A DNA stretch of 64,000 bases from Brevundimonas sp. (lineage in GTDB: Bacteria; Pseudomonadota; Alphaproteobacteria; Caulobacterales; Caulobacteraceae), in the NCBI RefSeq assembly GCF_013912005.1, contig NZ_JACESB010000002.1, positions 124,001 through 188,000 of the forward strand, written 5' to 3'. Under the pieces are notes generated by a model, which saw nothing but the letters and a program-made list of their open reading frames with translations, made no database searches and had not been told where the DNA came from. Position 1 is the first letter of the stretch. The number at the start of each line of letters is the position of its first letter. Position numbers and translations under genes: made by a program. Positions 45,046 to 47,369 of the stretch are shown piece by piece.

Positions 45046-45071
45046 ATATAAAGATATGTTTATATGTTCAA
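45046..45071 (-). promoter_or_regulatory. metK: metK promoter with 20-bp palindromic operator
   Basis: ATATAAAGATATGTTTATAT at 45046-45065 is a palindrome with only one mismatched pair (18 of 20 bases). It is an AT island in very GC-rich DNA. A -35 like TTGAAC (45071-45066, minus) abuts it and a weak ATATCT lies about 16 bases on, so the palindrome fills the promoter. ArsR-family regulators of methionine metabolism (SahR/SamR) use AT-rich operators of this kind, from memory of that family. The distance to the start is too short for a SAM riboswitch. Confidence 0.6.
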
Positions 45072-45517
45072 GTCGCTTTGCTGCGTCGCCAGCGCGCGCC
45101 TGAGCTGACGGCGGGTTCGCCCGCCAGCCAACGCTCCCCCACGCCGGCCAGCAGGGCGAGGGCGGTCAGGATGCCGAGGCCTATCCGCGCCGAAATGTCC
45201 GCGGAGTGACTCATGGACGGAGCCGCAAAGGCGGCGAAGTGGATCAGCAGGGTGAGCGCCATCACCGCGGTCATGGCGAGCGGCCACCAACGATTTCCCG
45301 TCACGGCCATCCATCCGAAGATCAGGGTTATCGCTCCGTCGAGGGCGGCGTCCCCGAGGTGGACGTTCCACAATCGCCAGGGATGAACAATCAGGGACAG
45401 GCCGAAGACGGTCAGCAGGATCACTGCGCCCCGCCGCTCCGGATGCCCGCCCTTCACCCAGGCCAGCGCCACCGCGATCAGCATGAGCAGGTAGTAGATA
45501 GCCAGAAAAGGGGCGAT
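45068..45517 (-). CDS. Polytopic membrane protein of the LuxR-HTH cassette, copy 1
   Basis: From the only standard start (ATG 45484) the protein has 138 residues but begins in the middle of the first membrane helix. In frame upstream, ATC at 45517 has GGGAGAG six bases before it and aligns with the start of the paralogue, giving 149 residues; a non-standard or mutated start is suspected. About five transmembrane helices. Blocks shared with copy 2 are [20 protein letters not shown] and [21 protein letters not shown]. Function is unknown; it is paired with a membrane-anchored regulator. Confidence 0.65.
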
Positions 45518-45561
45518 CGCGGTCTCTCCCGAATTTGCCCGCGGGGCAGGCGCGATCCTCT

Positions 45562-46227
45562 TCAGCCTTCCGCGCGCGCGTCTCGCGCGGAAGGCGCTGG
45601 CCGGGTGATGCGCCCGATCTCACCTGCCTGTTCCGCGTACGCCACCACCAGGTCCGCCGCAGCCTTGAGCAGCGCCGCGGTCATGAAGACGAGGGCGAGC
45701 AGGATCAGGAGCCGGACGCCGCGCCCTCCTGGCGGCGGCCGATAGCCGAGGCGTCGACCCGTGCGCCCATCTGGGCCATCACCCAGCCGGCGCTCAGCAC
45801 CTGCCGCAGCAACTCGCGAGGCGGAATTTGTGCGGCGTCCTCCGCCAGCCCGCGCATGAGATGCGCCTTCACCGGATCGTTCGCTCCCGAAGGGCCAAAC
45901 CCGTCCAGCGCCGCCTCCAGATCCTCCCACGTCCAGTGCGGAAGATGGTTGTCGCCCATACTCATGCGTGGCCTCCCTGACTTCGGCGGGAGGTGACGCG
46001 GCGGCGGCCGCCTCGCCAATGGGGTCTTTCGTATCCCCTGGTACGTTTCGTTCCAGAAGGGCCAGCGCCGCCTTGCGGCGGTTGACGCCAAGCCGGCGAC
46101 AGGCCTCGTGCACGTGCTTCTTGACGGTCGCCTCGGACAGGCCCAGCCGCGCGGCGATCTCCTTGTCCGTCAGGAAGGCGGTGAGCCTGAGACACTCTTC
46201 CTGGCGCGCGCTCAGACCTGGCGACAT
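45562..46227 (-). CDS. LuxR-type HTH protein with C-terminal membrane anchor, copy 1
   Basis: 221 residues. Residues 5-60 are a GerE/LuxR HTH (TDKEIAARLGLSEATVKKHV is the turn-recognition part), identical over about 54 residues to copy 2. No receiver, PAS or autoinducer domain is present. Near the C-terminus GYRPPP leads into one transmembrane helix (VRLLILLALVFMTAALLKAAADLV). The linker between them is about 100 residues, twice copy 2, and has weak coding signal because another gene is nested there in a different frame. It overlaps the stop of the copy 2 membrane protein by 16 bases. Confidence 0.7.
   Translation of the reverse strand: MSPGLSARQEECLRLTAFLTDKEIAARLGLSEATVKKHVHEACRRLGVNRRKAALALLERNVPGDTKDPIGEAAAAASPPAEVREATHEYGRQPSSALDVGGSGGGAGRVWPFGSERSGEGASHARAGGGRRTNSASRVAAAGAERRLGDGPDGRTGRRLGYRPPPGGRGVRLLILLALVFMTAALLKAAADLVVAYAEQAGEIGRITRPAPSARDARAEG
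45705..45965 (-). CDS. Nested small gene of unknown function inside the HTH copy 1 linker
   Basis: 86 residues in another frame of the same strand. Support: AGGGAGG six bases before the ATG at 45965; G or C at about 80 percent of third codon positions by eye, against roughly 55 percent for the HTH frame over the same bases; and a sensible protein (HWTWEDLEAALDGFG, then PPRELLRQVLSAGWVMAQMG), acidic and helical, without membrane helix. It is absent from copy 2. No family recognised. It may be the true gene here, with the HTH frame merely open, or both may be used. Confidence 0.6.
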   Translation of the reverse strand: MSMGDNHLPHWTWEDLEAALDGFGPSGANDPVKAHLMRGLAEDAAQIPPRELLRQVLSAGWVMAQMGARVDASAIGRRQEGAASGS

Positions 46228-46706
46228 CGGCGACTCCGGAGGATCTGATTGTCAGCCGGCTCATGCCGCACCTTCCATCGGGCGTGGGGGCTGACGGCCG
46301 CCTCGCCCGCCAGGGACCGTTCAAGAACGCCGGCCGCCAGGGTCAGGTACAGCAGCGCGCTCAGACCGATCTGCGCCGAGATCTGCGTACTCATGCTTAT
46401 GCCGCCGACGAGCAGGACATAGGCGTGGAGCATCATGGCGAGCAGCATGGAACCGGCGGCCGCGAAAGGCCACCAGCGCGGGCCCGTCAGGGACAGGCGG
46501 ATGAACATCACGGTCACGACGGCGTCGACTGCGGCCTCGAGGGGCATGAAGCCGTCAATGGCCAGTGGCGGCAGGACGGCTCCCTCCACGATCGCCGACA
46601 ACAGCACCCAGGCCGCAGCAGAACGCTCGGGCGGTCCGCCCTTCGCGCCGCACAAGGCGATCACCGCGAAAAACTCGGCGAGGAGTATTTCCTGATAGAC
46701 GGTCAC
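46212..46706 (-). CDS. Polytopic membrane protein of the LuxR-HTH cassette, copy 2
   Basis: 164 residues from GTG 46706, 30 bases after the HTH copy 2 stop. About five transmembrane helices (ILLAEFFAVIALCGA; WVLLSAIVEGAVLPPLAI; AAVDAVVTVMFIRL; FAAAGSMLLAMMLHAYVLLVG; IGLSALLYLTLAAGVLE), with a cytoplasmic-looking basic tail (RWKVRHEPADNQILRSRRCRQV). A clear paralogue of the 45068-45517 product. No known family recognised. A membrane partner or sequestering protein for the HTH regulator is the simplest inference. Confidence 0.72.
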   Translation of the reverse strand: MTVYQEILLAEFFAVIALCGAKGGPPERSAAAWVLLSAIVEGAVLPPLAIDGFMPLEAAVDAVVTVMFIRLSLTGPRWWPFAAAGSMLLAMMLHAYVLLVGGISMSTQISAQIGLSALLYLTLAAGVLERSLAGEAAVSPHARWKVRHEPADNQILRSRRCRQV

Positions 46707-46736
46707 CGACCCGCCCCCCCACTTTCGGGCATCGGG

Positions 46737-47195
46737 TCACCGCTCCGGTGCAGCGGCGCGGCCGATTTCTCCGGCCTGCCCGGCGTAACCGGCGACGAGA
46801 TCGGCCACGGCCTTCAACAGGACGATCGAGAGCACCAGCGAGAGCAGCAGCATTCCGATGCGGAAGGCCGGGTGCGACGGCGGCGGCCGGTAGCCCATGA
46901 CCGGACGCTTCGGATCCGTCCCCCCGCGACCGGCGGTCTGGTGGTCCGGCTGCGGCATGCCGGGTTCCGCGTCGAAGCGGGCGCCGGGCCGCGCGGCCCG
47001 GCCGTCGAGACTCCCCGCCTCGAGCAGGGCCAGCGCCGCCTTGCGGCGGTTGACCCCCAATCGGCGGCAGGCCTCGTGCACGTGCTTCTTGACGGTCGCT
47101 TCGGACAGACCGAGGCGAGCGGCGATCTCCTTGTCCGTCAGGAAGGCGGTAAGCCTGAGGCACTCTTCCTGGCGCGCGCTGAGCCGCGACGGCAT
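46737..47195 (-). CDS. LuxR-type HTH protein with C-terminal membrane anchor, copy 2
   Basis: 152 residues from the ATG at 47195. The HTH (residues 6-60) is the same as copy 1 and about 90 percent identical in DNA, so the duplication or a conversion event is recent in this part. A short linker with MGYRPPPSHPAF is followed by one transmembrane helix (FRIGMLLLSLVLSIVLLKAVADLV) and the end YAGQAGEIGR, shared with copy 1. The DNA-binding head faces the cytoplasm. First gene of the five-gene array, about 100 bases downstream of tRNA-Thr. Confidence 0.75.
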   Translation of the reverse strand: MPSRLSARQEECLRLTAFLTDKEIAARLGLSEATVKKHVHEACRRLGVNRRKAALALLEAGSLDGRAARPGARFDAEPGMPQPDHQTAGRGGTDPKRPVMGYRPPPSHPAFRIGMLLLSLVLSIVLLKAVADLVAGYAGQAGEIGRAAAPER

Positions 47196-47293
47196 CGACG
47201 ACCTCCCGTTCGGGAGTCTGCCTAGGCTGCGCCGCGCCATGCGTCCAGACGCGCGAGCGGGTCCGACGGGAACGATCATGAATGGAAAGGTGG

Positions 47294-47369
47294 TGGTGCC
47301 GCTTGCGTGACTCGAACACGCGACCCCCTCATTACGAATGAGGTGCTCTACCGGCTGAGCTAAAGCGGC
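47294..47369 (-). tRNA. tRNA-Thr (anticodon CGT)
   Basis: Read on the minus strand, 76 bases fold into a full cloverleaf: acceptor GCCGCTT/AAGCGGC, D arm AGCTCAGCCGGTAGAGC, anticodon stem CCTCA/TGAGG with loop TTCGTAA (anticodon CGT, reading ACG), T arm GCGTG-TTCGAGT-CACGC. CCA is encoded at the 3' end (47296-47294). It lies between hemD and the HTH/membrane cassette, reading the same way. Confidence 0.97.

Follow-up and report, generated by a model that had tools for sequence, protein, structure and literature searches.

A LuxR-type regulator gene in Brevundimonas and its relatives whose linker DNA appears to encode a second protein in another frame

ToxR, a transcription regulator anchored in the membrane, combines an OmpR-type winged helix with a periplasmic domain. 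The cassette described here was found in a 64,000-nt stretch of Brevundimonas sp. DNA (the window) and contains an HTH regulator with one transmembrane (TM) helix (HTH-TM) and a five-helix membrane protein (MP). It resembles the ToxR-type regulators in that a DNA-binding domain in the cytoplasm is joined to one TM helix, but the domain is a GerE HTH, the tail is short (20-58 aa after the stop of a nested gene, M, the TM included) and there is a five-helix partner; the winged helix with periplasmic domain that we take to define the type was not found. In the LytTR Regulatory Systems of S. mutans (HdrRM, BrsRM), a transcription regulator is encoded beside a membrane protein that inhibits it (PMC6193735), and the regulator gene of the cassette likewise adjoins a membrane-protein gene. 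However, its DNA-binding domain is GerE/LuxR and not LytTR (no LytTR match), the regulator is itself membrane-anchored, inhibition by MP is putative, and there are additional components, the nested M and a third family of about 110 aa that we call G3. No published account of this unnamed regulatory cassette of HTH-TM, M, G3 and MP was found in a literature search, a weakly supported negative as the search terms did not include Brevundimonas and most subscription papers lay outside the search.

Out-of-frame nested genes are considered rare in bacteria and are discarded by many annotation tools (PMC12350097). The same source names comS, a nested same-strand out-of-frame gene in srfA. M, too, lies whole and out of frame inside a longer gene, but its overlap has been kept in at least three genera, with M identity to the copy of the window down to 17%, and it sits in the linker of a regulator. 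In C. crescentus, the 804-nt CDS of CCNA_00832 holds a 360-nt CDS in its second frame and peptides from both were reported (PMC4117421), an internal out-of-frame CDS in a related bacterium. At four Caulobacter-like loci (L149, L150, L152 and L154), the HTH-TM ORF is exactly 804 nt with its stop, and the M candidates (starting with ATG at two, GTG at one and TTG at one) are 363 nt with the stop, hence 360 without. Gene order, however, points to a LysR-type gene for CCNA_00832 and not to the cassette family. CCNA_00830 is a beta-galactosidase and CCNA_00835 is FljN (PMC9007349, PMC4551563). In two genomes (L189/L193 and L190/L192), the genes between the equivalents of these two were judged by eye to be alpha-glucosidase-like, LysR, WrbA-like and flagellin (the last unambiguous in L192; two flagellins in total are listed for L193), with the HTH cluster about 8 kb away on the other side. 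The identity of CCNA_00832 with the HTH-TM/M pair was rejected on these grounds, and the LysR gene of the relatives contained no 804/360 ORF pair.

In the window, HTH-TM and MP genes each occur twice and alternate on the minus strand (45068-47195) between tRNA-Thr, the only Rfam match at the locus, and metK, which was assigned from its own ORF and from relatives (Table 1). This is the tandem order given in an earlier note on this DNA. Also as that note had stated, the two HTH parts have identical residues, from LSARQEE to ALALLE (their DNA is 89% identical over 183 nt), are of the GerE/LuxR type (PF00196 at 37.0 and 36.2 bits against a cut-off of 23.5) and showed none of the receiver, PAS and autoinducer domains in Pfam or NCBIfam. 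The match was confined to the HTH stretch; Sigma70_r4 and Sigma70_r4_2 also passed their cut-offs there, more weakly than GerE, and the NCBIfam matches shown for these proteins were below cut-off. The GerE domain places the proteins among the LuxR/GerE-type HTH regulators, and the lack of autoinducer and receiver domains separates them from the LuxR-type quorum and the NarL-type response regulators. Searches with the PADLOC anti-phage defence models gave no match (best E 0.022, for the HTH protein only).

Table 1. Positions in the window of the cassette genes and neighboring features.
Feature	Position	Strand	Description
Copy A MP	45068..45517	-	First ATG 45484; start probably ATC 45517
Copy A HTH-TM (downstream copy)	45562..46227	-	HTH, long linker, one TM helix; 221 aa; linker DNA also appears to encode M
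M	45705..45965	-	86-aa ORF entirely inside copy A HTH-TM, frame +1, ATG 45965
Shine-Dalgarno-like AGGGAGG ahead of M start	45972..45978	-	From sequence
Copy B MP	46212..46706	-	Five predicted TM helices
Copy B HTH-TM (upstream copy)	46737..47195	-	GerE/LuxR HTH joined by a short linker to one TM helix; 152 aa, ATG at 47195
Promoter- or operator-like element TCTGGACG-N-CCTAG	47221..47249	-	About 52 nt before copy B
tRNA-Thr (CGT) bordering the cassette	47294..47369	-	Rfam

The five-helix membrane protein proposed earlier was borne out by the AlphaFold2 model of the copy B MP, which has five membrane-length helices and a short C-terminal one (pLDDT 84.6). The same note held that both the membrane proteins and the linkers had diverged. 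The two MPs are indeed only about 36-39% identical; the linkers do not fit the description, that of copy A being mostly the second gene M and that of copy B being short, with no nested ORF in it. Relatives with one HTH gene in the examined stretch (e.g., L038) share this HTH core, so the HTH identity alone is no mark of a recent duplication. The MP of copy A probably starts upstream of its first ATG, at an ATC codon. In several MPs of metK-side loci (window, 45517 minus; L009, L011, L014, L017), ATC or ATT takes the place of the ATG of orthologs, in every case with a GGAGA-like site directly upstream, and these codons are possibly a conserved rare start codon.

Of 24 clusters that have no G3, 21 carry the TGGAC part of the element ahead of copy B at a distance of 46-57 nt from where the HTH match starts, and in many of them a CCTAG-like stretch comes next. 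In these clusters, TGGAC is kept at a fixed place and the CCTAG part varies. The constant position is the telling feature, as TGGAC is present somewhere in 166 of 535 control windows 265 nt long. Direct repeats ahead of the operon -35 serve autoregulation in LytTR Regulatory Systems; what was noted ahead of the cassette is this conserved TGGAC-containing element. It may act as a promoter or as a site for the regulator itself, and as copy A does not have it, the four genes of the window probably form one operon.

Within copy A, G+C by codon position favored the HTH frame at both ends of the gene and was higher in the other two frames in the middle. In the loci of relatives, an ORF reading LPxWTWxxLExAL was found within an HTH ORF that stays open to the TM segment. 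A profile of this ORF (M), built from 28 sequences, was searched in 398 genomes of the order, with the best 12 or 13 candidates per genome scored, as in the G3 search. Matches at E<=0.001 were obtained in 53 genomes from 3 of the 59 genera, all in the family of the window (Caulobacteraceae). A search with a single M sequence at E 0.01 gave weak matches in 8 of the 59 genera, of which the profile search confirmed three; the three named genomes matching the M of the window were all Brevundimonas. The remaining 43 profile matches were also fetched as loci and annotated. De-duplication left 84 distinct M places with a profile E of 1e-3 or better, and 82 after removal of L026, where M is at the edge of the locus, and L161, where M has no recognizable HTH.

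M lies in the +1 frame, one base after the HTH frame, at 80 of these 82 loci with an upstream HTH gene, and in the overlap each M codon ends on the base with which an HTH codon begins. M is spanned by the HTH ORF at 79 of the 82, where the whole M ORF is within another gene in another frame and forms a fully nested overlapping gene. The exceptions are L151 and L163, each from a draft genome and with a frame change between HTH and M, and L159, where the M frame continues beyond the HTH stop. All 79 spanning loci have a tail past the M stop with a 19-residue stretch of peak mean Kyte-Doolittle hydropathy of at least 1.95. Under a rule that favored the start with the best Shine-Dalgarno match, and on which both counts depend, M starts with ATG in 61, GTG in 16 and TTG in 2 of the 79 loci, and in 70 the start codon has ahead of it a Shine-Dalgarno-like site matching 4 or more of 6 bases.

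A tblastn search of plasmids with one M gave no match, yet a weak M was recognized by eye and by profile (E=0.03) in an Asticcacaulis plasmid fetched with MP (L131), nested in the same frame. The record of this plasmid lists M as a hypothetical protein (2221-2457; 237 nt, 78 residues) and has no entry for the HTH-TM gene around it (1752-2582), an example of how annotation can keep the inner gene and lose the regulator around it. At L080 (same place as L168), the M ORF reaches 175 aa, with what look by eye like two M-like repeats, and is still inside the HTH ORF.

As a test of chance, synonymous codons were shuffled with the M protein kept and stops were counted in the HTH frame. The test set was 55 representatives with less than 80% M identity, drawn from the 79 spanning loci (L151, L159 and L163 are thus left out). 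Stops of the HTH frame inside M numbered 0 against 72.1 expected (72.7 on repeat), with a log10 product of P values of -39.9, which overstates independence as the loci are related. In the reverse shuffle of the same 55, M-frame stops were 0 against 17.5 expected (log10 -10.9). The same shuffle of control genes gave 45 stops in MP against 59.3 expected (58 genes, 33 of them stop-free against 23.1 expected) and 69 in G3 against 79.2 expected (43 genes). The controls fall a little below expectation, so the shuffle null overestimates stops to some extent, though by too little to account for zero. Without any selection for spanning, the HTH-side frame had no stop within the matched M core at 83 of 83 non-edge M places, a count that includes L151, L159, L161 and L163 and leaves out the edge locus L026.

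These numbers bear on the reading in which the HTH and the TM helix are separate small proteins on either side of a non-overlapping M, and the open HTH frame is a chance product of high G+C. Stops are indeed made rarer in the HTH frame by the 85.5% G+C at M third positions, third-position G+C in mid-copy A favors the M frame over the HTH frame, and 21 of the 79 loci have an in-frame ATG, GTG or TTG within 60 nt before the TM segment (ATG in 10). Starts of this kind are few, however, and a separate TM start is thus unlikely in general. The 55 stretches have 217 stops in their third frame and none in the HTH frame. Where M is absent, the HTH and the TM helix share one ORF (23 of 24 clusters), which is independent evidence that the HTH frame truly reaches the TM segment. 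We consider the chance reading very improbable. Conservation of the M stretch for a DNA or RNA function, and not as a protein, for which no support was found, is harder still to credit: differences are concentrated at the third positions of M codons (rates of 0.154, 0.157 and 0.308 at positions 1, 2 and 3, used in place of dN/dS, from 196 pairs covering 62 of the 79 loci), which argues that M is conserved as a protein, and P9 and W13 are invariant across the 28 aligned sequences at identities to the window's M down to 17%. Alternatively, M could be the end of an HTH-M fusion made by programmed +1 frameshifting, with no start of its own. The frame relation is as constant as this requires, but any nested gene would show such constancy, and the Shine-Dalgarno-like sites point to a separate start, even if the starts were picked by that very match. 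Frameshifting seems to us improbable, if not quite to the degree of the chance reading.

The stop depletion together with the codon-position pattern is what a nested gene with both frames under selection would give, and both frames seem to code for protein. Among 76 pairs of equal length, differing residues make up 22.5% in M and 37.7% in the HTH frame. The pattern suggests that M is the conserved protein and that the HTH frame, as a tether, is under little constraint beyond having to remain open. A reason why the overlap is tolerated would then be visible, as the host frame need only be a tether, and this nested gene is backed by 55 diverged sequences and a control.

The predicted structure of M is three helices at moderate confidence (pLDDT 71, four-sequence alignment). 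No PDB fold matched the model at E<=0.001. The M profile matched designed repeat proteins among PDB sequences (best E 9e-8), a match judged spurious, and no stretch passed alone. MP matched no solved structure, either by sequence up to E 1 or by fold at E<=0.001, the best PDB match of G3 was at E 0.031, and a phage search with one G3 gave no match. The earlier note did not recognize a described family here, and in agreement with it, M, G3 and MP matched none in Pfam, NCBIfam, PHROG and PADLOC above threshold or at a convincing E-value (for MP, the PHROG queries were the proteins of two relatives and not that of the window).

The note had also asked whether the membrane protein and the HTH gene co-occur as neighbors. 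In the loci examined they do: L009-L037 (29 loci, part of the 55 MP matches listed) contain 32 MP places, and at 28 of these an HTH gene precedes MP. The other four are L015, at a contig edge, and L033, L036 and L037, with weak MP matches, which have G3 and no HTH. A second cluster in the genome of the window (L186, contig C38) has G3-G3-MP-MP in a row with no recognized HTH gene. The proposed two-protein membrane system was thus right in its linkage of HTH and MP, but the plain two-protein make-up does not hold in view of the nested M and the many clusters with G3. Since the loci were fetched with the cassette genes themselves, the 107 distinct HTH-to-MP clusters in them are not a random sample; 83 have M and 24 have no M by profile. 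The latter include copy B and the weak-M Asticcacaulis case. The median length from the HTH to the stop is 234 aa in the clusters with M versus 152 aa in those without. G3 lies between HTH and MP in 65 of the 83 and in 18 of the 24, and is absent from the tRNA-metK locus type, to which the locus of the window belongs. Across the class, 6 of 385 genomes had G3: four in the family of the window, among them its own genome, and two in a single other family. On a Sphingobium plasmid, HTH-TM, G3 and MP are present with no M.

M is dispensable in some lineages, as seen from copy B and the 23 other clusters with no profile-detected M (L131 having a weak one). In a midpoint-rooted tree, M is spread over most lineages of the family. 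The M-less tips are a supported clade of 16, copy B, L020, L021, a Caulobacter rhizosphaerae plasmid (L130), L137 and L138 from another family, and the plasmids of Sphingobium and, by profile, Asticcacaulis. Copy B is paired with the M-containing relative L072, and L082, L083 and L172, all with M, are placed beside outside clusters. The tree fits a gain of M near the base of the family followed by several losses, with many deep nodes weakly supported and the direction resting on the rooting.

Taken together, we lean towards a model where a membrane-tethered LuxR-type regulator works with the five-helix partner MP, and the linker DNA of the regulator, in copy A as in most of the relatives examined, is read twice and also makes M. 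The sequence statistics favor the double reading, as both frames appear maintained, M conserved as a protein and the HTH frame open to the TM segment, and they link HTH and MP. The HTH frame of the linker would give a little-constrained flexible tether and one TM helix, and the +1 frame, usually from its own Shine-Dalgarno-like site, would give M, a small soluble helical protein. MP might sense or relay a membrane signal and control whether the tethered HTH acts on DNA, with M, and G3 where present, as cytosolic partners of the HTH/MP complex. Being made from the same stretch of DNA as the linker, M would be tied to the regulator gene. Of the tandem copies, copy A would be the complete unit and copy B one that lost M through shortening of the linker. 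More tentatively, M may have been overprinted within the tether early in Caulobacteraceae, its product binding and controlling its host protein or the G3/MP complex. If this is true, a regulator gene carries its own modulator in a second frame, kept across several genera.

Activation of the regulator by proteolytic release, with MP taking part in that step, could replace sequestration or conformational control. The single TM anchor and the short tail are compatible with it, but MP has no match among protease families, nor any among solved structures in searches by sequence and by fold, and we regard release as unlikely. Somewhat less likely again is that MP has no bearing on the regulator and merely shares its operon. 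The three G3-MP places with no HTH and the second cluster of the genome of the window would favor such a loose association, and the HTH gene upstream of most MPs argues against it.

On the metK side of the cassette, a near-palindrome, ATATAAAGATATGTTTATATG, lies between MP and metK at 45046-45066 of the window. An 11-letter palindrome (letters not shown) was found upstream of 37 of 53 metK starts among the examined loci, a redundant set, and resembles a SAM/SAH-responsive operator.
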